Shown: one piece after another, positions 2,387 to 31,146 of the stretch | How the letters are laid out: every line of letters begins with the position of its first letter | Position numbering within the stretch: the stretch's first letter is position 1 | Virus record (IMG/VR): IMGVR_UViG_3300030106_004142 | Location: 1 to 32,028 of that record | DNA from: a virus | Length of the DNA: 32,028 nucleotides | Direction: 5' to 3' (one strand) | Notes under the pieces: generated by a model | The model's input: the letters and a program-made list of their open reading frames with translations, nothing else | Database searches by the model: none | Told to the model about the DNA's origin: nothing | Made by a program: the position numbers and the translations under genes

Positions 2387-2844
2387 TACTGTGCCGCCCT
2401 ACCGAAATGCCGCTCCATAAATTGCAAAGCGGCACCACTGTTCACAAAACCAGGTTCGCAAAAAGCCTCTGGCTCACTCCACTCATCCCTAGTGGGCCGA
2501 GAACGCATCATCTTGCGATACTCAGCAACATTGTCAGCACGCCAGACCCAACCAACAGCACGCATGAGGCAATACTGGTCGTTGGTGATCCCGAGATGTG
2601 ACAAACGACCCAAAGAGTTGACCCAAACGCTCTGCAAACGCATCTCGCCGCATCGAGCCACAACAGCGTCAATGTTCTCCTGCGTGCAGTAACGCCTGTC
2701 CCTCGACAGCATGGATGAACCAGCGCCGTCCAAAAACGCCTGCCTGCCGCTACCGTCAAAGGGCGCAAGGTCAATAATGCGAGGACCAGTGTGCAACCTG
2801 AGAAACCTGTTTTTTATGGAAGCGCGCTTGTTCATATAACGCAT
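2386..2844 (-). CDS. Hypothetical protein
   Basis: A 152-residue protein I cannot assign. It is basic at the N-terminus (MRYMNKRASIKNRF), has a scattered set of Cys and Trp residues (YCTQENI, DQYCLMRAVGWVW), and ends in an acidic segment followed by MERHFGR. A second in-frame ATG lies three codons in (2835) and neither has an obvious ribosome site, so the start is uncertain by 9 bases. It is the first gene after a 152-base gap and overlaps the next gene (TAATG), placing it at the head of a three-gene set with the two paralogues. Confidence 0.6.
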   Translation of the reverse strand: MRYMNKRASIKNRFLRLHTGPRIIDLAPFDGSGRQAFLDGAGSSMLSRDRRYCTQENIDAVVARCGEMRLQSVWVNSLGRLSHLGITNDQYCLMRAVGWVWRADNVAEYRKMMRSRPTRDEWSEPEAFCEPGFVNSGAALQFMERHFGRAAQ

Positions 2845-2996
2845 ACGTCGCCGCGCAAGCCGGCCCGGCGGGGTCAGGCCCAGGGGGCCATATCGTGCGA
2901 ATGTCGCATAACGTTAATTATGGAGATGGTATACCCTGCATAAACAATGGCTTAGCACTGCAGCGCAGGCCATGCGCCAAAAATGTCGCTGTCAGA
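2845..2996 (-). promoter_or_regulatory. Intergenic region with inverted repeats and a weak leftward promoter candidate
   Basis: No gene was found in these 152 bases. They hold GGCCC-AGG-GGGCC (2877-2889) and TGCGA-ATG-TCGCA (2896-2908). A minus-strand CATAAT (2922-2917) could be a -10 box, with TTGTTT (2947-2942) as a poor -35 at a long 19-base spacing. It lies between the stop of the terminase-small-like gene and the start of the paralogue set, so a regulatory role is plausible but unproven. Confidence 0.3.
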
Positions 2997-3617
2997 CTAG
3001 GATTCGCCCTCGATTACGACGCCTGCTGTCGCGTCTGCGCTATTCCGCTCAATGTTGATCTGGACGTTGACAGCGCCGCCCTTTGAGCTGTCGCTGCCAA
3101 AGCTATCCCTTTGAGTTCGTTCAAGAAACCAGCTGTCTGCACGCCAGTCTCGCTCTCCGGCTTGGCCGATGCGTCGCACCCTGAGAGCCACAGCGGCGCT
3201 TTCTGCGGCGCGTACCTCACTTGCAAATGCCGCGTCGTCTGCTATCCATCGATGCAGCGTTGCCTCATGCACGCCAACGACTTGCGCCGCGTGCTTCTTT
3301 GGCACGCCATCCTTGAGAAGCTCTATAACTCCAGCGCGTTTATCGCCAGCAACTAACTGTGTCGATGTTGGTTGCACCTTGGCAACCTCTTGATTGGTTG
3401 CATCTGGTTGCATGGTTGCAGGTTGCAACCCCCTGCGCTGCCGTTTGATTGCAACCGTTAGCGGCTTGTCGCTAATCCATCCCTCACGGTGGCATCGTTT
3501 CTGTATAGCCTGCCGTGAGACGCTGTAATCCTTGGAAACTGCGTTAAAGCTCTCGCCTGCCTGGATGCGTTGCTCTATCTCAGCCCAATCGACTTGGGCT
3601 GGCTGATACTTTCGCAT
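2997..3617 (-). CDS. terS: Terminase small subunit-like HTH protein
   Basis: A 206-residue protein if begun at the ATG at 3617 (MRKYQPAQVDW). The frame is open further upstream, but that extension does not look coding. Residues ~10-45 form one HTH (FNAVSKDYSVSRQAIQKRC). A second HTH follows near residue 115 (AAQVVGVHEATLHRWIADD), and then AESAAVALRVRRI, W and WFLERTQRDSF. This order (HTH, W...D..F, A-rich helix, WxLER) is typical of phage small terminase subunits that recognise the packaging site. The large subunit is at the opposite edge of the window, so the two are adjacent only if the genome is circular or permuted. A general DNA-binding protein is the alternative. Confidence 0.65.
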   Translation of the reverse strand: MRKYQPAQVDWAEIEQRIQAGESFNAVSKDYSVSRQAIQKRCHREGWISDKPLTVAIKRQRRGLQPATMQPDATNQEVAKVQPTSTQLVAGDKRAGVIELLKDGVPKKHAAQVVGVHEATLHRWIADDAAFASEVRAAESAAVALRVRRIGQAGERDWRADSWFLERTQRDSFGSDSSKGGAVNVQINIERNSADATAGVVIEGES

Positions 3618-4526: not shown

Positions 4527-4790
4527 TCATGCAGCGCTCAGAACTTTTAGTCGCGGCACGAGCTGATCTGCCAATTGCTCTCTTAAATAGTCCAGCGTCA
4601 GCGTCCCAGGCTGTCCCTGTAGGTAGCTCGGCAGCGCTAGGTGCGCGGCATCAATGCTTGGGAAATACTTTGACTGATGGCGGCGCACTGGCACGCCGTA
4701 CAGCTCGGCTATGTAGAACAGGCCGCGCCCTTCCACGATGAGCCGGCTGATCTCACGATCTGCATCTGCCAGTGCCTCATCCCTAGTCAT
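4527..4790 (-). CDS. Hypothetical protein coupled to the DpdA-like gene
   Basis: The ATG at 4790 overlaps the stop of the DpdA-like gene as ATGA and gives 87 residues. A longer frame to 4826 would begin with low-complexity Ala/Gly residues and is less likely. The protein starts with an acidic helix (MTRDEALADADREISRLI) followed by GRGLFYIAELYGVPVRRHQSKYFP, which could be a small HTH-like fold, and ends in a Leu-rich helix. I do not recognise it. Strict coupling to the transglycosylase gene makes it a candidate accessory factor for base modification; this is inferred from position only. Confidence 0.6.
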   Translation of the reverse strand: MTRDEALADADREISRLIVEGRGLFYIAELYGVPVRRHQSKYFPSIDAAHLALPSYLQGQPGTLTLDYLREQLADQLVPRLKVLSAA

Positions 4791-5467
4791 AGCGCCAGCT
4801 CCTGCAGTTCCGGCTGTTGCTGCCAACGGAGAGGCGTCTGCACAGCGTCAAGCCGGCGTGCCATCGTTTCAGCGTCCACTTTCCTGTCTTTGAAGTTTCT
4901 GGCCACGTTCACGCTGTCAGCACTCGCAAACGGCCAGCGCTTGCCAGTGAGGGCAAGGCCGCGCAGCATATGAATGTGCGGCAAAAACCGATGTGCCTTT
5001 GCAAGCGCGTTAAAAGCCTTGTCTGCGCGGAATGACCACGCCTCGCTTTCAACTTGCCAATATTTTCCAGAACTGCCGAAACAGACCTTGGGATAGCGGT
5101 CACAAAGAAAAAGCAAATAATCTATTGGCAGACCCATGTGCCACACAGGCGCTGCCAGCTCGTTTGGATAGGGCCACTCAGCCAGCAAGGCTTTCTGTTG
5201 CTCTACGGGGCCGTCAATGACATCAGGAATCACAGCCCAGTGGGGGTGGCCTAAACGTGGCTCCAACCAGGCGTAGTAAGCGTTGCGGTCGAACTGAACG
5301 CCCTGCCTGAAGCTGGTGAAGGCACCGTTGTCCCACATGATGCTTTGGCCAATCTGCAAGCAGATGTCGGCATCGTCTGGCCTCGCAAACGACACGCAGA
5401 AGTGCTTGCCGGCCATACCGTAAAGCTCTTTGCGTGGCGTCAGCGGGGTGCCGTGATAATGAATCAC
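4787..5467 (-). CDS. dpdA: DpdA-like DNA 7-deazaguanine transglycosylase
   Basis: This 226-residue protein matches the phage DpdA type related to tRNA-guanine transglycosylase. That family exchanges guanine in DNA for a 7-deazaguanine such as preQ0. Visible motifs, in order, are MWDNGAF with Asp46, WAVIPDVIDG with Asp82 and Asp85, VCFGSSGKYW around residue 130, and HMLRGLAL then FASADSVNVARN around 166-191. I chose the GTG at 5467: it overlaps the preceding stop as GTGA and has GGAAGG seven bases upstream. The five-codon longer version would need a TTG. The neighbours, a YhhQ-type transporter upstream and a coupled small gene downstream, support a base-modification cassette. No queuosine-pathway biosynthesis gene is in the window, so the base is probably scavenged. 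Which 7-deazaguanine is used cannot be told from sequence. Confidence 0.88.
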   Translation of the reverse strand: MIHYHGTPLTPRKELYGMAGKHFCVSFARPDDADICLQIGQSIMWDNGAFTSFRQGVQFDRNAYYAWLEPRLGHPHWAVIPDVIDGPVEQQKALLAEWPYPNELAAPVWHMGLPIDYLLFLCDRYPKVCFGSSGKYWQVESEAWSFRADKAFNALAKAHRFLPHIHMLRGLALTGKRWPFASADSVNVARNFKDRKVDAETMARRLDAVQTPLRWQQQPELQELAL

Positions 5468-5721
5468 TGACTTGCCTTCCAAGACGACTCTATTGTGATG
5501 CCCTTGTGGGTGCCTTTCAACCGACCGGATGCGTGCGGAAATTTTGAGGCAAACTGTTCTGCCAGATATTCTTGCAAAGCAGGCTTACCCTTGTTGAACG
5601 CACAATCCACGATCTCCTCTGCCATCGTCGTGGTTTCTGTTTCTAAGGTCAGCTCGTAATCGATTTCTTCACAATCGATCGGGCAAGCAGAAATGAAGCT
5701 GAGTTTATATTTGTGCTTCAT
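5464..5721 (-). CDS. Hypothetical protein between transporter and DpdA genes
   Basis: An 85-residue protein of unknown function. It has alternating hydrophobic segments suggesting beta strands at the N-terminus (MKHKYKLSFISACPIDC), an acidic region (DYELTLETETT), a helix, and a basic GRLKGTHKGITIESSW end. It overlaps the transporter gene by 17 bases at its start and the DpdA-like gene by GTGA at its end, so the three are co-translated. I considered a QueD-like or FolE-like enzyme, but the His/Cys metal and catalytic motifs are absent. A partner in delivering or modifying the base is possible but unsupported beyond position. Confidence 0.65.
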   Translation of the reverse strand: MKHKYKLSFISACPIDCEEIDYELTLETETTTMAEEIVDCAFNKGKPALQEYLAEQFASKFPHASGRLKGTHKGITIESSWKASQ

Positions 5722-6193
5722 GCTTGCGCCTCTGTAGCAAGTACATCACAACAAAAGCACCGACCATTTTACTCAGGGTCATCAGCACAACGCCACCAAT
5801 GCTGAAGTAACCGATCATGGCTAGGAAGACAGCGCTATCAAGCGGGGTGCCAACCGCCGACGAAATCACAATGCGCTGGTGCAGAGGCCGTTTTGACCAG
5901 GTGTAAACCAGCCAGTCGGCAGTTTCACTAATTAAGAAGGCAACTACTGATGCGACCGCCACAAACGGATCTGCTAAGTAGTAGCTCAACAATGCGCCGA
6001 TCATCATTGCCCCGATCACTCGATGGCCTATTTCACGCTGGCTGAAGTCCCGCAGCACGAAAATCAGGCCAACCAACAGCGACATTGGTGGCCACATTTC
6101 ACCCAAAAGCGGCATCGGCGGCACATAAACAAAGCCGATATTCACAAATAAGATGCACGCCACATATGCAATAGAATACTTGTATGCGTTCAT
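5705..6193 (-). CDS. yhhQ: YhhQ/VUT-family queuosine precursor transporter
   Basis: A 162-residue integral membrane protein with about six hydrophobic segments. It carries the family signatures LRDFSQREIGHR, SETADWLVYTW and GTPLDSAVF. Members of this family (DUF165/PF02592) take up 7-cyano-7-deazaguanine or related queuosine precursors across the inner membrane. It is shorter than E. coli YhhQ (about 220 residues) but retains the core motifs. The ATG at 6193 has GGGAG about ten bases upstream. Sitting two genes ahead of the DpdA-like enzyme, it most likely supplies preQ0 for phage DNA modification when the host cannot make enough. Confidence 0.85.
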   Translation of the reverse strand: MNAYKYSIAYVACILFVNIGFVYVPPMPLLGEMWPPMSLLVGLIFVLRDFSQREIGHRVIGAMMIGALLSYYLADPFVAVASVVAFLISETADWLVYTWSKRPLHQRIVISSAVGTPLDSAVFLAMIGYFSIGGVVLMTLSKMVGAFVVMYLLQRRKHEAQI

Positions 6194-6420
6194 TTTTCTT
6201 CTCCCTCTGTTAATTCGACATAGCCCTTGCCCTCACAAACCGGACACTGGCCAAGCCCCGTAGTCAGGTCGCCGCCGCGCATATAATCCGGCACTGCGAT
6301 CTCGACCTCACACTCGCCCTGAGCATCGCAATGCTCACATTCCAGCACCTCGCGCCATTCACCTGGCACCGTTGAGATGCGAATCTTCCGCGCCAGCATG
6401 GTGCTGAACCCTCTAGCCAT
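6190..6420 (-). CDS. Small zinc-ribbon protein
   Basis: A 76-residue protein with two CxxC knuckles, CEHC near residue 28 and CPVCEGKGY near residue 59, the second in the CxxCxGxG form of DnaJ-type zinc fingers. The fold is probably a single zinc ribbon; the partner is unknown. An AAGGCGG ribosome site precedes the ATG at 6420. The start lies inside the end of the methyltransferase gene and the end overlaps the transporter start by ATGA. Similar small zinc-ribbon proteins are common in phage early operons. An internal ATG seven codons in is an alternative start. Confidence 0.7.
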   Translation of the reverse strand: MARGFSTMLARKIRISTVPGEWREVLECEHCDAQGECEVEIAVPDYMRGGDLTTGLGQCPVCEGKGYVELTEGEEK

Positions 6421-7294
6421 TTTCGACCGCCTTGATTGTCAGGCCGATCTGCATAGCGATTTGCGGCACGATGGCATTGCCCAGCCCCTTAAGCCGTGCT
6501 GCCCTCTGCTTCACGCCGGTTGCTACTCTTGGGATGTCTCTAGGTTCGTCCAACCAGGTGGATAGCCCATCAGCCACTCCACCCATGCTGGATTCAACGA
6601 CCCCTGCGCCCATTGCTGCGGCGTCGTGCCTCTTATATCTGGATGGTTGCCTAGCATCGCTTGCATCTTGCCGTCTGTCGTCCCCGCCGCGTCCTCGTTG
6701 GCTGTCGGTGTCGGCCACATCCGCACTGCGCCGCCAAGTGTCGTCCCACGTTTGGTTCCGATTGTCTTGCCTTGCCCCCGCACTTGCGAGTTGTCCTGCG
6801 TTGTCGCTGTTGGCCACAATCCAAACTCTGTGTCGTCTGTGCGGGGCATCGAGGGCCACAGCACCAAGGCAAAATGTCTGGACTTCGTAACCGGCTTTAT
6901 CTGCCAAGTCAGATAGCACCGTGTTGAGGCCCAGACTGAGGTGTCCAGCCACATTTTCGCAAACAACCCAACTCGGCCTTTTTGCTTCAATAATGGTAAA
7001 TATTTCCGGCCAGATGTGACGGTCATCTTCCTCGCCTCGTCGGACCCCGGCCTGACTAAATGGTTGGCATGGGTATCCGGCTGTGAGGATGTCGCAGTCT
7101 GGAACAAGTCGCCCTGCATCTTTAGCCAACTCCTTCACGTCTTCTGTTATCGGCACGTCGGGCCAATGCTTGGCCAGCACCTTGCGGCTCCATTCCTCTA
7201 CGTCACAGAACAGCACCGGGCGGGACAGGCCAGCCCACTGAAAGCCCAACGCAAAGCCGCCGATGCCTGAACACAGATCAACGTGAGCCAGCAT
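6413..7294 (-). CDS. C5 cytosine-specific DNA methyltransferase
   Basis: This gene methylates cytosine at C5 using SAM. In the 293-residue form started at the ATG at 7294 (GGGGGA five bases upstream), motif I is DLCSGIGGFALG, motif IV GYPCQPFSQAG with catalytic Cys76, motif VI CENVAG, motif VIII RRHRVWIVA (about 153-161), and motif X GLGNAIVPQIA near the end. The stretch between motifs VIII and X, about 110 residues, is hydrophilic and Asp/Arg-rich and should hold target recognition. The same DNA carries a long open +1 frame described separately. No cognate restriction endonuclease was seen, so this is an orphan phage enzyme, probably protective or regulatory. It overlaps the nuclease gene upstream and the zinc-ribbon gene downstream. 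Confidence 0.93.
   Translation of the reverse strand: MLAHVDLCSGIGGFALGFQWAGLSRPVLFCDVEEWSRKVLAKHWPDVPITEDVKELAKDAGRLVPDCDILTAGYPCQPFSQAGVRRGEEDDRHIWPEIFTIIEAKRPSWVVCENVAGHLSLGLNTVLSDLADKAGYEVQTFCLGAVALDAPHRRHRVWIVANSDNAGQLASAGARQDNRNQTWDDTWRRSADVADTDSQRGRGGDDRRQDASDARQPSRYKRHDAAAMGAGVVESSMGGVADGLSTWLDEPRDIPRVATGVKQRAARLKGLGNAIVPQIAMQIGLTIKAVENG
6523..7119 (-). CDS. Nested +1-frame ORF inside the methyltransferase gene
   Basis: A 198-residue frame lies wholly within the methyltransferase gene, shifted +1. Its ATG at 7119 has an AAGGAG ribosome site ten bases upstream. The translated product looks like a protein type I recall from phage and prophage annotations near C5 methyltransferases. Its features are TSGRKY (35-40), CYLTW (68-72), MPRTDDTEFGLWPT (91-104), MWPTPTANED (134-143) and a C-terminal GSLNPAWVEWLMGYPPGWT (173-191). 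The last resembles methyltransferase motif IX (FP..W). It is either a true overlapping gene whose product helps the methyltransferase or an old frame retained by dual coding. Function is unknown. Confidence 0.55.
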   Translation of the reverse strand: MQGDLFQTATSSQPDTHANHLVRPGSDEARKMTVTSGRKYLPLLKQKGRVGLFAKMWLDTSVWASTRCYLTWQIKPVTKSRHFALVLWPSMPRTDDTEFGLWPTATTQDNSQVRGQGKTIGTKRGTTLGGAVRMWPTPTANEDAAGTTDGKMQAMLGNHPDIRGTTPQQWAQGSLNPAWVEWLMGYPPGWTNLETSQE

Positions 7295-7619
7295 CGCTAT
7301 CCCCCACTTGCCCACGCAAAAGCATACAGAAGTCATCAAGATCTAGCACCACCAGCTCAGGCTTGCGGTCAGCCTTCAGCACCAGCGCATCAGCGCCGTC
7401 CATCCAGTCATAGAGCTGCTTGAATCCGTTGGCGCGGCATTTGACTTCAAGCTCCCACTGGTCAACAGGCAGCGGGTCACCCTTGCGAATCACCAAATCG
7501 TTTTTTATGGCGGCACCGCCTGATAGCGGGACGCGGAAACAATCGAGGCCATTGGCTTCCAGCTTCTTGCGGATGCTGTTCTCAGCTCTGTAACCTTTAT
7601 CGCGTGATGCTTTACCCAT
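7278..7619 (-). CDS. Hjc-like PD-(D/E)XK nuclease (Holliday junction resolvase type)
   Basis: A small protein of 113 residues from the ATG at 7619 (MGKASRDKGYRAEN); an ATG six bases earlier is the alternative. It has the archaeal Hjc-like arrangement: a conserved Glu in RAENSIRKKLE, RVPLSGGA, a catalytic Asp in NDLVI, and WELEVKCR carrying the E-x-K signature, followed by a helix (KQLYDWMDGADALVL). This suggests a nuclease that resolves branched DNA, fitting the recombination genes on the other strand. It overlaps the HTH gene upstream and the methyltransferase downstream. A VRR-NUC-type nuclease is an alternative family. Confidence 0.8.
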   Translation of the reverse strand: MGKASRDKGYRAENSIRKKLEANGLDCFRVPLSGGAAIKNDLVIRKGDPLPVDQWELEVKCRANGFKQLYDWMDGADALVLKADRKPELVVLDLDDFCMLLRGQVGDSDAGSR

Positions 7620-7830
7620 CGGCATACGCTGGAAAGAAATCGTTTGGCATAACCTTTCCCCCAGTCAGATTGATAATACGCTGCATATAATCAGGGTTTG
7701 GCACTGATCGCCTGGCGTCTCCCAGGGGGTGGCACCACCTAGTTACAGTGATCGTCTGTGGGACGCCCAACTGACGTGCCAGCAACGATTTCGACCACCC
7801 TTGTTCTTTTCGCCATTGTTCTAAGGTCAT
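7612..7830 (-). CDS. Small HTH transcriptional regulator
   Basis: A 72-residue protein whose N-terminal half reads as a Cro/CI-type HTH (EQWRKEQGWSKSLLARQLGVPQTITVTRW), with the recognition helix near residues 24-34. It is the first gene of the leftward operon and is divergent from the recombination operon. The predicted -10 box (7842-7837) leaves about six bases before the ATG at 7830, so the transcript may be leaderless, as for lambda cI made from PRM. It probably binds the inverted repeat at 7842-7856. Whether it acts as Cro-like, repressor or activator cannot be decided; it has no visible C-terminal dimerisation or cleavage domain. Confidence 0.75.
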   Translation of the reverse strand: MTLEQWRKEQGWSKSLLARQLGVPQTITVTRWCHPLGDARRSVPNPDYMQRIINLTGGKVMPNDFFPAYADG

Positions 7831-8990: not shown

Positions 8991-9328
8991 ACGCGCAAGA
9001 AACCTTGTTTGACGCTCTCAGCGTACCTCGCAACGACCGTGAAGCACGGTTCTTAAAATTCCACCGCGAGAACCCAGAGGTGTATCAGTTTTGGGATCGG
9101 TTTACCCGCGAGGCTTTGGCCAAGGGCCATGACCGAATTGGATCACAGATGATAATCGAGCGGATAAGGTGGGAGACGAACATCGTGCTGCATGACCAGC
9201 GCCCTGACGGTGAGCCACTGAAGATCAATGACCATCACAAGCCGTATTACGCCAGGCTGTGGATGGAAAACAATCCGCAGCACAAAGGCGTATTCAACAC
9301 ACGGGCGGTCGAGGGAGATGTCCAGTGA
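8987..9328 (+). CDS. Conserved phage hypothetical protein
   Basis: A 113-residue protein starting at the ATG overlapping the previous stop. A longer version from 8951 would overlap the membrane-protein gene and is unlikely. The pattern FLKFHRENPEVYQFW, IIERIRWETNI, KINDHHKPYYARLWM, then NPQHKGVFNTR is one I recognise from small phage proteins near replication or recombination genes; its function is unknown. It ends in a GTGA overlap with the ERF gene, suggesting both products are needed at similar levels. Confidence 0.75.
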   Translation: MNAQETLFDALSVPRNDREARFLKFHRENPEVYQFWDRFTREALAKGHDRIGSQMIIERIRWETNIVLHDQRPDGEPLKINDHHKPYYARLWMENNPQHKGVFNTRAVEGDVQ

Positions 9329-9981
9329 CTGAAAGCAGCAAAATCAATACTGCCATAGCAAGTGCAATGAAAGAGGTGCAAAAGCTGCCCAAAGATGACC
9401 GCAATGAACATGGGAAATACAGCTTTGCTTCAATTGACAAATTTCTTGATGCGTGCCGGCCGATATGCGCAGCGCACGGCTTACATCCAAACATTGACGG
9501 CGTAGCTTCAGACACATTCATGGCTGGCAGCAATAAGCTCTGGGGGAAATTTAGCTACCGCATCTCAATGCACCATGAGTCGGGTGAAAGCACTGAGCCA
9601 TCTGGCATGGATGTCATGCTGCCTCTGACCGGCGCGCAAACCAGCGGCTCAGCACAAAGTTATGCGCTGAAGCAATATCTGCGCGGTTTGCTGATGATAT
9701 CTACTGGTGAAAAAGACGATCCTGATTTCAATCAGCCAGCATCCAAAGACGGTGTTGACGCATCACCAGTGCCGACTTTGGAACAGCCGATGAGCGTGAA
9801 AAGCGCTGAACAAATGGAAGCAGAAATAAAGAAACAAACGACTTTGGTCGGGCTGAACACCTGGCAGCAAGAAAATCTCAATTGCTTGTCGGTGCTGCAA
9901 CAGAGCAATTACGACCAATGGCAACGTCTTTACAATGTGTGGCTAGAGAGAGAGAAGGAGATCCGAAATGGCAGCACCTGA
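9325..9981 (+). CDS. erf: ERF-family single-strand annealing protein
   Basis: This 218-residue protein has the ERF pattern. Residues ~27-53 read GKYSFASIDKFLDACRPICAAHGL, and residues ~110-135 hold the conserved TSGSAQSYALKQYLRG followed by LMISTGEKDDPD. ERF proteins (type P22 Erf) anneal complementary single strands and promote phage DNA recombination or circularisation. The GTG start at 9325 overlaps the previous stop (GTGA) and has GGGAG upstream. The longer ATG frame from 9259 lies inside the preceding gene. The C-terminal ~75 residues are polar and helical, as in other members. Works with the upstream nuclease and probably with the next protein. Confidence 0.9.
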   Translation: MTESSKINTAIASAMKEVQKLPKDDRNEHGKYSFASIDKFLDACRPICAAHGLHPNIDGVASDTFMAGSNKLWGKFSYRISMHHESGESTEPSGMDVMLPLTGAQTSGSAQSYALKQYLRGLLMISTGEKDDPDFNQPASKDGVDASPVPTLEQPMSVKSAEQMEAEIKKQTTLVGLNTWQQENLNCLSVLQQSNYDQWQRLYNVWLEREKEIRNGST

Positions 9982-25335: not shown

Positions 25336-26277
25336 TTACACATGAATGACGCCCTGAAGGGCGCGGTTGGAACAAGTCAGGTTTCCTGACCAGAACATCG
25401 GAGTAACCAAGGCATCTTGGTTGACCGACATCTTTGCTTCACCAGGAACAAAGTCCCTGCCCTCTGCAACCTCAAGACGCAGATACTGAGTGTTCAGGAA
25501 ATACATCTTGTTGGTTGGGCATTGGTCGTCATAGACGACATCAGAGTTCAGATACTGAACGCTGGTAAAGCCAGACCGTGCCAGATCATCGCTGGTGATG
25601 CGCTGGATTGCCTGCAGGCTTCCGAGGAAAGCCTTATAAGCATTGGCATCTGCCATGATCAGATCGGGCGCGTCGGCACCGCGAACAAGCAGGAGATACA
25701 TATTGTTCATATCTGCCTGCACGTTTGCTGTACTGAAAGCACTCGATGTTGCAGTGGTCTGCTGGTTTTGCCAGAAGGTAAAGGTCGAGGAGTTGATGCC
25801 GCCGACCGTGCCGGTGCCACCATCTGCGACGATCAATTGCAGACCACCAACCTCCTTACCATCGGTTCCCGTTCCGTCCGAGTACAAAGAGGTCGCGAGG
25901 GTGTTCATCAAGCTCTTTTCAAGCACGTTGATGCGCGCCTCAAGAAGATTGATGATGGCCTGGACGCCTGAGTTTTTGATTTGCTCAAGGCCAGAGATGG
26001 TGACATTGCCAGCCATCTGTTTGTAGTCAAAGACGGCTGCCGACAGAACATCAGAGGGTTCGACGTTAAGTGTCTCATATCCCTGATAAAATTGTACTGT
26101 CGAGTTAGCCGCATACTCCAGCTCGCGCACGATATCGCGACCAGTCACAGTTGTCTGGTTGCCTTGTTCGCGCATCCGCTGAAGCAACGCATTATGGTTG
26201 CTGAGGTTGTCAGCAAGCTGTCGAGATCGATTCCGCAGAGTCGTGGTGACGATCTCGGAGAGATTTGGACTAGCCAT
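25336..26277 (-). CDS. Major capsid protein
   Basis: A 313-residue HK97-fold-type capsid subunit. The N-terminus is a helical arm (NLSEIVTTTLRNRSRQLADN), followed by ARINVLEKSLMNTLATSLYSD, GGLQLIVADGG then GGINSSTFTFWQNQ, and a beta-rich C-terminus with FVPGEAKMSVNQD. The GGLQLIV...VGGI...FWxNQ order matches capsid proteins of marine podoviruses I recognise. No N-terminal protease domain is seen. The acidic scaffold-like gene immediately upstream is consistent with a procapsid-forming phage. Confidence 0.88.
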   Translation of the reverse strand: MASPNLSEIVTTTLRNRSRQLADNLSNHNALLQRMREQGNQTTVTGRDIVRELEYAANSTVQFYQGYETLNVEPSDVLSAAVFDYKQMAGNVTISGLEQIKNSGVQAIINLLEARINVLEKSLMNTLATSLYSDGTGTDGKEVGGLQLIVADGGTGTVGGINSSTFTFWQNQQTTATSSAFSTANVQADMNNMYLLLVRGADAPDLIMADANAYKAFLGSLQAIQRITSDDLARSGFTSVQYLNSDVVYDDQCPTNKMYFLNTQYLRLEVAEGRDFVPGEAKMSVNQDALVTPMFWSGNLTCSNRALQGVIHV

Positions 26278-28796: not shown

Positions 28797-29179
28797 AACT
28801 TACCCCTGTGTTCACGATTGGCACGCCCAAGCACTCCCTTGCCCAAGACAGACCGCAGATGCTGTCTGCCCTCGCGCACCATCTGGCTCACGCCGCCAAA
28901 CGGAGCAATGAAATCCACCAGCCAAAGCCTATCGCCTGCGTTCCAGTCATCTGGCTGTATCTTGCGGGAGCCGGCCAGATAACCAGCCTCAGTCTCTTCA
29001 TTGAACAAGCCCCAGGTTACAAACCCGACCGGCTGATGTTCTACTTGCCAGATTCGGAACTGTTGGAGCGCTACCGGCGGGATGATCAGCCTGTGAACGT
29101 CTTCGATCGTCCAGTTGCAGTGCTGATCGCTCTGGCCCATGAGCCAGGTCATCATGCCGACTGCCTCGGTGTTCTTCAC
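28778..29179 (-). CDS. HlyC-like lysine acyltransferase (RTX toxin activator family)
   Basis: A 133-residue protein aligning by eye along most of its length with HlyC, the acyl-ACP-dependent enzyme that acylates toxin lysines. Matches include MMTWL, DQHCNW with His20 at the HlyC catalytic His23 position, PVGFVTW for the HlyC PVAYCSW, DDWNAGDRLWLVDFIAPFG with Asp89 at the second catalytic position, and the acidic EETEAGY. It is shorter than HlyC (about 170) at the C-terminus. The GTG start overlaps the portal stop as GTGA. No RTX repeat protein was found here, so a virion or host lysine may be the target. Alternative: a GNAT-fold relative with another substrate. Confidence 0.78.
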   Translation of the reverse strand: MKNTEAVGMMTWLMGQSDQHCNWTIEDVHRLIIPPVALQQFRIWQVEHQPVGFVTWGLFNEETEAGYLAGSRKIQPDDWNAGDRLWLVDFIAPFGGVSQMVREGRQHLRSVLGKGVLGRANREHRGKLWSAVT

Positions 29180-31146
29180 TGTGTGACCACCTTGGCTGCA
29201 TCAATCTCCAGCTTCTGCTGCTTGAACTGTGCGTCTTGCGCCGCCTTTTGCTGATCAAGCTGCAGTCGGGCAACCTTGACCTGGGCATCAGCCGCCGCTT
29301 GCTGTGTCTGCGCCTGTACCTTTGCAGCCTCGACCTCAACCAGTTTATCGCTTGGGGTTGGCCCAGGCTGTGGCGGCTGAATGGCCTCAAGCGTCTCTTC
29401 AAGGTCACGCGCGCCAGGAAATGCTTTGGCAGCAAACAGCAGCATCTGCTTGGCTTGCTCAAAGCCCACAGCACCGCTGGCAACCAATGGACCAATCGCC
29501 TGCAGAAACTGCACTGTAGCCGTCAAAAACTCTGTGCGGCGCTGTTGCTCGATGGCCGTATCAACAGCGGCAGACTCTTCTGTATCAACCGAAATCCGAT
29601 AGTTGCGCGTGCGCTCATCACGCATCAGCGCCACCATCTCTGGCGTCACCACAACGCTGGTAACTTTGCTTAGAACCTCGGGCTCTAGATTTTCAACCAT
29701 CAGCTCAGCCTTCAACTCCATGATCTGATCAAGGAACTGCTCGACAAGTCGCTGCCGGTTCATCAACCGCATAGCGCCAAACTGGCCTTTGATGCGCTGG
29801 GCAGTGGCAGTCTCGCGGCTAGCACTTGTGCCGCGCATAATGTCCGAAATGCCGGTGATCTCGTAAATCGTCTGAATTACGATCTGGCGTGATTGATAGA
29901 GCTGCCCCAGTGCCTTGATAAGATTATCAAGCGGAGCTTCCTGCATGACGTTGGCAAGACCGCCGCCAGCCTGCAGCATCGCCATATTATCAACCGGAAC
30001 AAACTCGTTGTCACTTGCCTCTGCAAGACGTTGCAGTTCCTGGAAGCTGGCATCGTAGACGCCGCGCCTTTTCAGCGCTTCTGTCAGGCTGGCAATCCGC
30101 TGTGTGATCAGATCCAGTTCGTGAATCTGGTCCTCATAGCTGAATATTTCAGGGACAGGCAGCGAGGTGTCGGTGGTCGATATGGCGTAAAGAGGCTCCG
30201 GCATAGGCCAGAAGCCATCAAGATTATAAGGATCGTCAAACTCGTCCAATATCTCATCATGGTTTAGCACCACAAAAAGCTGCTTCTGGCTGCGCCTGTC
30301 CCAGATTTCATAAACCTCGGCACGATCAGGCTGCTTGTCGTCATCATAGCCGCCATCATCGCCGTGATAGCTCAGCGGGATCATCTCCCCCTTTGCGCCA
30401 TATACCTCAACCAGTTCATCGCGGGTCATCAGGTGCCGGAAGCCAATCCACGAGGTGTCATCCCAGCAACGTGCCGGTGACATCACAAAATCTTGCCAGT
30501 GGACATACTCACAGCGCACTGATTGCTCAGCAACAAACTCAACCGGGTCGCCAAGCATGAACGGCCCCATTGGCCCTTGCTGTACCTGGCTTTGCTCTAC
30601 CTCATTGCCCTCAGCGTCCACAAAACGCTGGCCGATTTGCACTTCACCCAGTTGCCCAGGGGCAACCTCCCCCACACCCGTGATTGGCGCAACCCTGACA
30701 GGGAGAACTTCCGGGTCACCCTCAATCACCACCGGCTCGTATACCAGCCTGATGACGCCGCGCCCGACTATGAGCATGTCTTCGATAGCCCTGCGAACAG
30801 TGGCATCGAAGTTGTAGACATCAAGCTGATATTGGAGCGCCCGTTCAAGTACCGTGCTTACTGAACGGGCAACTGGATCACTGTCCCTAAAACGCCGGCT
30901 CACCTTGGGCTTTGGCGTTTTGAAGTACAGCGCTGATTTCAAAGTATCGACGTTGCTATAGAAGATGTTCATTCGCACGTCGCGCTGCATCCGCTCAGGA
31001 TGATCGTCGCGATAGCGCTCGATGATATCGTGGCAGCGGTTGCGCCAGTTCTCTTCAAACCGACGCGCACGCATGATCTGATGATGCCAGAACCGCGCCC
31101 GTTCTAACTTGTCGGTCGGCTCTTTTTCAAAACTGTAGCTTTCCAC
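29176..31146 (-). CDS. Portal protein
   Basis: A 656-residue portal subunit, close to the usual size for podovirus portals. Recognisable parts are an N-terminal helical region (ARRFEENWRNRCHDIIERYR), IFYSNVDTLKSALYFKTPKPKV, VRRAIEDMLIVGRGVIRLVYEP, then CEYVHWQDFVMSP and WIGFRHLMTRDEL typical of portals, an ITGISDIMRGTSAS region, and a Gln/Ala/Lys coiled coil at the C-terminus. It starts with a GTG directly after the terminase stop, with GGAG seven bases upstream. It forms the dodecameric DNA channel bound by the terminase. Confidence 0.9.
   Translation of the reverse strand: MESYSFEKEPTDKLERARFWHHQIMRARRFEENWRNRCHDIIERYRDDHPERMQRDVRMNIFYSNVDTLKSALYFKTPKPKVSRRFRDSDPVARSVSTVLERALQYQLDVYNFDATVRRAIEDMLIVGRGVIRLVYEPVVIEGDPEVLPVRVAPITGVGEVAPGQLGEVQIGQRFVDAEGNEVEQSQVQQGPMGPFMLGDPVEFVAEQSVRCEYVHWQDFVMSPARCWDDTSWIGFRHLMTRDELVEVYGAKGEMIPLSYHGDDGGYDDDKQPDRAEVYEIWDRRSQKQLFVVLNHDEILDEFDDPYNLDGFWPMPEPLYAISTTDTSLPVPEIFSYEDQIHELDLITQRIASLTEALKRRGVYDASFQELQRLAEASDNEFVPVDNMAMLQAGGGLANVMQEAPLDNLIKALGQLYQSRQIVIQTIYEITGISDIMRGTSASRETATAQRIKGQFGAMRLMNRQRLVEQFLDQIMELKAELMVENLEPEVLSKVTSVVVTPEMVALMRDERTRNYRISVDTEESAAVDTAIEQQRRTEFLTATVQFLQAIGPLVASGAVGFEQAKQMLLFAAKAFPGARDLEETLEAIQPPQPGPTPSDKLVEVEAAKVQAQTQQAAADAQVKVARLQLDQQKAAQDAQFKQQKLEIDAAKVVTQ

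Follow-up and report, generated by a model that had tools for sequence, protein, structure and literature searches.

A gene nested in the +1 frame of a phage C5-cytosine methyltransferase gene probably encodes the recognition subunit of a split enzyme

In the window, by which we mean the whole 32,028-base virus record IMGVR_UViG_3300030106_004142, a single stretch of DNA very probably holds the genes for the two subunits of a split C5-cytosine methyltransferase (C5-MTase), namely a catalytic chain (alpha) in one frame and, in the +1 frame, a chain (beta) that carries the target-recognition domain (TRD) and motif IX. Alpha, at 6413..7294 on the minus strand (293 aa), was identified as a C5-cytosine DNA methyltransferase large subunit with Pfam, PHROG, AF2 and Foldseek; its likely start is the ATG at 7294, with a TTG further upstream at 7339 as the alternative. 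The whole MTase ORF (6413..7339, minus strand) encloses beta, an ORF of 198 aa at 6523..7119 of the same strand that begins with ATG and stays open for 198 codons, or 203 from stop to stop. The sequence AAGGAG at 7130..7135 (minus strand), exactly ten bases 5′ of this ATG, is the predicted ribosome-binding site of beta. Alpha contains motifs I (DLCSGIGGF), IV (GYPCQPFS), VI (ENVAGH), VIII (HRRHRVWIV) and X (GLGNAIVPQIA) and matched phrog_363 (7.5e-65). Beta contains WPTAT/WPTPT blocks, CYLTW and LNPAWVEWLMGYPPGWT, and matched phrog_1008 (‘DNA methyltransferase’, 2.3e-24), with no family matched in Pfam. The initial annotation had described a 198-codon +1 ORF inside a C5 methyltransferase gene, the AAGGAG ten bases before its ATG, motifs I, IV, VI, VIII and X in the outer frame, and WPTxT blocks and CYLTW in the inner product, and all of these were located as described. 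Its placement of the overlap in the target-recognition region holds for the TRD part of beta, but beta spans more than that, from alpha motif IV to just before motif X.

Alpha resembles only the catalytic half of a single-chain enzyme. Its catalytic segment with motifs I-VIII (residues 1-164; 6803..7294, minus strand) has a confidently predicted fold and shares DNA with the N-terminal half of beta from 7119 downwards, and motif X with the C-terminal helix (residues 264-293; 6413..6505, minus strand) lies just 3′ of the beta stop. AF2 was confident for residues 1-165 and 264-293, whereas residues 172-262 (6508..6781, minus strand), which lie opposite the beta TRD and motif IX, had pLDDT<50 and are predicted to be a disordered linker. 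In a Foldseek search, M.HaeIII and M.HhaI were matched over about 167 columns, which is about half of those enzymes, and Pfam together with motif inspection found no motif IX in alpha. Given the predicted disorder and the Foldseek coverage of about half, alpha has the large catalytic domain and no predicted small domain. In a single-chain C5-MTase (PF00145) both domains stand on one chain; the match of alpha to that family (DNA_methylase, 9.5e-36) covered only profile positions 3-166 of 324, and with residues 172-262 disordered alpha does not have this form. Thus alpha is like M.HhaI and M.HaeIII, which are single-chain PF00145 enzymes, in its catalytic domain fold and motifs, and unlike them in the predicted lack of the small domain and in having motif IX on another chain.

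An open +1 frame could also arise by chance, from G+C content and codon bias, with its conservation merely mirroring that of alpha. In the window alone, a +1 open run this long occurred in 61 of 20,000 synonymous-codon permutations of alpha (P=0.003), so that its length exceeds expectation without being exceptional, and the case therefore rests on homologues. When viral contigs were scanned with beta as query, at least 600 stretches were matched, of which at least 589 were relatives. Among loci selected by beta (80 viral contigs and four phages), the relative was nested in alpha at +1 in 84 of 84. A stop count over 83 loci gave 0 in the beta frame, where permutation of the alpha synonyms predicted 6.04 per locus, and 12.5 in the third frame, where 13.3 were predicted. 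The nested +1 beta was also present in 29 of 29 bacterial contigs and in 14 of 14 diverse loci from phages (of Klebsiella, Xanthomonas, Acinetobacter, Aeromonas, Mycobacterium, Microcystis and Lacticaseibacillus, and an Escherichia phage) and plasmids (of Paenibacillus, Leptospira, Bacteroides and Rhodoplanes), and 101 of 102 beta ORFs were nested in an additional set. Partial beta matches in Klebsiella, Acinetobacter and mycobacteriophages were considered as single-chain enzymes with an in-frame TRD, a reading that we rejected when these too proved to be nested.

Loci were also fetched with alpha queries to remove selection bias. With P0001 as query (a sequence that itself includes one motif IX pattern), the +1 frame was open in 65 of 75 loci against 2.4 expected, and the +2 frame in none. 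A beta-blind set, fetched with alpha residues 1-164 only, gave 62 distinct loci. Between motifs IV and X, 51 of them had an open +1 frame (0.55 expected) and 0 an open +2 frame, and the beta profile HMM matched the +1 frame in all 62. The N-terminus of a mycobacteriophage alpha used as query gave the same picture, with 17 of 18 loci open against 1.26 expected and 18 of 18 matched by the beta HMM. The chance explanation can point to the unremarkable P value of the window by itself and to third-frame identity, which is likewise raised by shared ancestry. Against it stand the stop counts over hundreds of loci with third-frame controls and a codon-position bias that flips between frames (below), and we give it next to no credence; on the codon-position bias, the stop counts and the beta-blind sample, a chance ORF was ruled out.

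To see which frame is under selection, codon-position bias was counted over 240 pairs, with the boundary between the N-half and the C-half of beta set by a pattern and thus approximate. The share of differences falling at alpha position 3 was 0.54 both before and after beta, 0.41 in the beta N-half (opposite motifs IV-VIII), 0.28 in the beta C-half, and 0.23 in motif IX, where the share at beta position 3 was 0.50. Amino-acid identities in the alpha, beta and third frames were 0.654, 0.537 and 0.460 over the beta N-half, 0.243, 0.405 and 0.238 over its C-half, and 0.617, 0.793 and 0.614 in motif IX. In its N-half beta exceeds the third frame only slightly in conservation (0.54 vs 0.46), which counts somewhat against the split-enzyme reading, and alpha across the beta C-half is conserved no more than the third frame. 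Taken together, these position-3 shares and frame identities indicate, at the level of sequence comparison, that alpha dominates through motif VIII and that beta dominates from the TRD to motif IX. From the frame relation and the same identities we infer that the alpha segment EPxVGRVAxGIPxRVDRLK before motif X is largely a shadow of beta WVEWLMGYPxGWTDLK. Within-sequence permutation gave very large z-scores, which are inflated by shared ancestry and carry no weight here; the conclusions were drawn from the codon-position bias, the stop counts and the third-frame controls. The initial annotation had raised true dual coding as a possibility and had named frequent +1 stops or random substitutions in homologues as a sign against it; the stops, the substitution pattern and the beta-blind set all favour dual coding.

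Beta probably has its own translation start. The start region could be aligned in 57 distinct loci, and in 43 of these a beta-frame start codon stood 8 bases after AAGGA. The lysine of the conserved alpha V-K-E-L was written AAG 45 times and AAA 4 times, compared with 303 AAG and 314 AAA for other lysines of the same alphas (303 of 617 AAG; Fisher 9e-10, with relatedness not corrected). Both the fixed spacing and the AAG bias favour initiation at beta itself over programmed frameshifting, in which ribosomes would leave the alpha frame for that of beta once past motif VIII, possibly returning ahead of motif X, and would make a fusion and no separate protein. Frameshifting would fit the DNA order I-VIII, TRD, IX, X, which matches that of a single-chain enzyme, and the long +1 ORFs without an obvious start in some relatives. 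We nevertheless consider it quite improbable, since the Shine-Dalgarno sequence and start are conserved at fixed spacing with a biased lysine codon choice, and since the beta N-half is also conserved, although a shift after motif VIII would leave it untranslated. In addition, one locus (L117) has a free-standing second beta-like ORF of 265 aa with motif IX (2416-3213, plus strand), located downstream of an alpha whose short nested beta is without motif IX.

The relatives of beta contain one to several WPTPTA blocks, a variable segment that differs from relative to relative, and an almost invariant LNPxWVEWLMGYPxGWT, which in the window corresponds to SLNPAWVEWLMGYPPGWTNL (beta residues 174-193; 6541..6600, minus strand), with columns invariant in the relatives. 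We regard this segment as motif IX because the same motif shifts to the alpha frame in four contigs (L128-L131), where alpha itself contains LNPDWVEWLMGYP, immediately ahead of motif X, and the WPTP repeats are still in the beta frame, an alternative split point conserved in all four. The alpha of L128 (P0001) accordingly covers Pfam positions 2-322 of 324, with motif IX right before motif X, and its motif IX segment aligns with KLHPRECARVMGYPDSY of M.HhaI. This alignment bears out the initial suggestion that the C-terminal LNPxWVEWLMGxPxGWT resembles motif IX. A Vibrio plasmid C5-MTase (L319:2492-3736, plus strand) has a permuted order on a single chain, in which motifs I-VIII are followed by X and then by parts that resemble the TRD and, at the end, motif IX. 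Its arrangement and that of L117 both agree with TRD-IX being a separable module.

Structure prediction did not yield a fold for beta. AF2 of beta alone was poor (pLDDT 61, pTM 0.31), and the Foldseek search with this model, which found no match, is meaningless because the model was of low confidence; a search of the PDB with the beta sequence profile found no C5-MTase. A poor model might be expected of a partner-dependent domain, and it offers no support for the fold. The missing fold would leave room for beta to be expressed in some other role, for instance in regulating or inhibiting the methyltransferase or host restriction, with a superficial likeness to motif IX. This is very unlikely in our judgement, as the motif aligns with M.HhaI via P0001 and sits exactly before motif X on the DNA, alpha is without a predicted small domain, and the Vibrio plasmid enzyme joins both parts in one chain. 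From the comparison of sequences, beta is most likely the DNA-recognition subunit missing from alpha, and the initial suggestion of a possible second subunit gains support from an alpha without the small domain and a beta with motif IX.

If so, alpha would act as the catalytic large domain, responsible for SAM binding and PCQ catalysis with motifs I-VIII and X, and beta, translated independently from its own Shine-Dalgarno sequence and ATG in the +1 frame, would supply in trans the target-recognition segment and motif IX that form the small domain. Association of the two would give a complete enzyme, either chain alone being incomplete, and the pair would place methyl groups on cytosine at sites that beta selects, which may mark or protect phage DNA.

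A split of this kind has precedents. Lee et al. 1995 (NAR 23:103) reportedly found that the small polypeptide of EcoHK31I is read from a different frame of the large gene, within its limits. M.EcoHK31I and M.EaeI are two-polypeptide C5-MTases for YGGCCR, and the window pair is like M.EcoHK31I in that alpha carries motifs I-VIII and X, in that the small polypeptide has motif IX and the large one has none, and, if that account of its nesting is right, in that beta lies in an alternative frame within the alpha gene. By this motif layout, the window pair may be assigned to the M.EcoHK31I type. Two natural two-polypeptide C5-MTases have been described (PMC3404938). The small subunit of M.AquI carries both motif IX and motif X, whereas that of M.EcoHK31I carries only motif IX, its large subunit having motif X and the predicted TRD. 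The window pair shares with M.AquI, which is encoded by two overlapping genes, a natural split of a C5-MTase into two polypeptides, and differs from it in that alpha carries motif X and encloses the whole of beta in its gene; an AquI-type split was rejected for the position of motif X. The TRD is where the window pair would differ from M.EcoHK31I, since we place it in beta. The placement published for M.EcoHK31I would instead make beta a carrier of motif IX only, with the TRD in alpha, and the four contigs with the motif IX segment alone in the alpha frame show that this segment is separable from the other parts of beta. We hold this to be unlikely, because between motifs VIII and X alpha is predicted to be disordered and is as little conserved as the third frame, in contrast to beta, and substitutions there fall at the beta third position. 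Also unlike M.EcoHK31I, which belongs to a restriction-modification system, the window gene is phage-borne, and no restriction enzyme was recognised by Pfam and PHROG annotation of the immediate neighbours of alpha. When the M.EcoHK31I system was sought in E. coli genomes by DNA similarity, only prophage relatives were present among the regions opened.

As to origin, we tentatively propose, giving it a little less than an even chance, that a single-chain C5-MTase became two nested genes by paired frame changes around TRD-IX, a reciprocal overprinting kept throughout a large phage MTase family. Each frame would then consist of one ancestral half (I-VIII and X in alpha, TRD-IX in beta) and one overprinted half (the disordered linker in alpha, the N-terminal part in beta), and the conserved alpha stretch before motif X would be for the most part the shadow noted above. 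If this were true, specificity could evolve in beta, with alpha following passively.

The inner gene has been annotated before in a number of phage records. In Paenibacillus phages Rani (gp50/gp51, ‘g50 Internal gene’) and Bloom (Bloom_56/57) the same nested +1 pair is present with both members annotated as DNA methyltransferase, and their beta is 35% identical to window beta; a functional study of these pairs was not found. In Escherichia phage K1G, ORF30 (Mte8-like protein) lies in the +1 frame within ORF31 (C-specific methylase), and its motif IX (LNPAHSRWLMGYP) diverges from that of window beta. K1G ORF30/ORF31 and Rani gp51 agree with the earlier remark that similar proteins are annotated separately near phage methyltransferases. 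In the loci that we opened from mycobacteriophages Rhynn and SG4, Lc-Nu, and E. coli prophages in RefSeq, alpha alone was annotated. Thus the kind of arrangement was known from M.EcoHK31I (1995) and these records, and what is new is how widespread it is, how often annotation omits it and the mosaic of the dominant frame; judged from the sampled loci, nesting appears to be near-universal and mostly unannotated in a large phage enzyme family. No paper giving nesting as a family-wide rule was found in the open-access literature, most subscription papers being outside the search. The sampled loci suggest that a ‘DNA cytosine methyltransferase’ annotation in a phage or prophage may in many cases describe only half an enzyme. 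Recoding the codons of such an annotated gene for expression, a routine step when genes are synthesised, would abolish beta, and a false ‘inactive’ result could follow. The family is also a large natural resource for the study of overlapping genes on the same strand, with a dominant frame that differs between parts of the overlap.

The window is a tailed-phage genome fragment, as indicated by genes for an ERF-type single-strand annealing protein (9259-9981, plus strand), a major head protein (25336-26277, minus strand, phrog_9953) and a portal (29176-31146, minus strand, phrog_12082). Upstream of alpha is a PDDEXK/RusA-like resolvase gene (7278..7625, minus strand) whose 3′ end overlaps the alpha start. 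The immediate neighbour on the other side encodes a Vut_1/queuosine-precursor-transporter-like protein (5705-6193, minus strand), and next to it a queuine tRNA-ribosyltransferase-like protein is encoded at 4787-5482 (minus strand, phrog_887, 3.7e-42), with no match in Pfam or the PDB. These two genes are possibly a 7-deazaguanine DNA-modification pair beside the C5-MTase.

Two further loci had altered versions of the overlap. In plasmid pAP1 of Paenibacillus polymyxa (L094:1983-3050, plus strand), the beta frame carries two consecutive motif IX copies with a stop between them, and alpha repeats the matching segment, apparently by internal duplication. In L239 (2191-3493, plus strand), alpha is apparently frame-shifted and a beta-like segment and motif X are found in one ORF, which could be due to mutation, an assembly error or a fusion.
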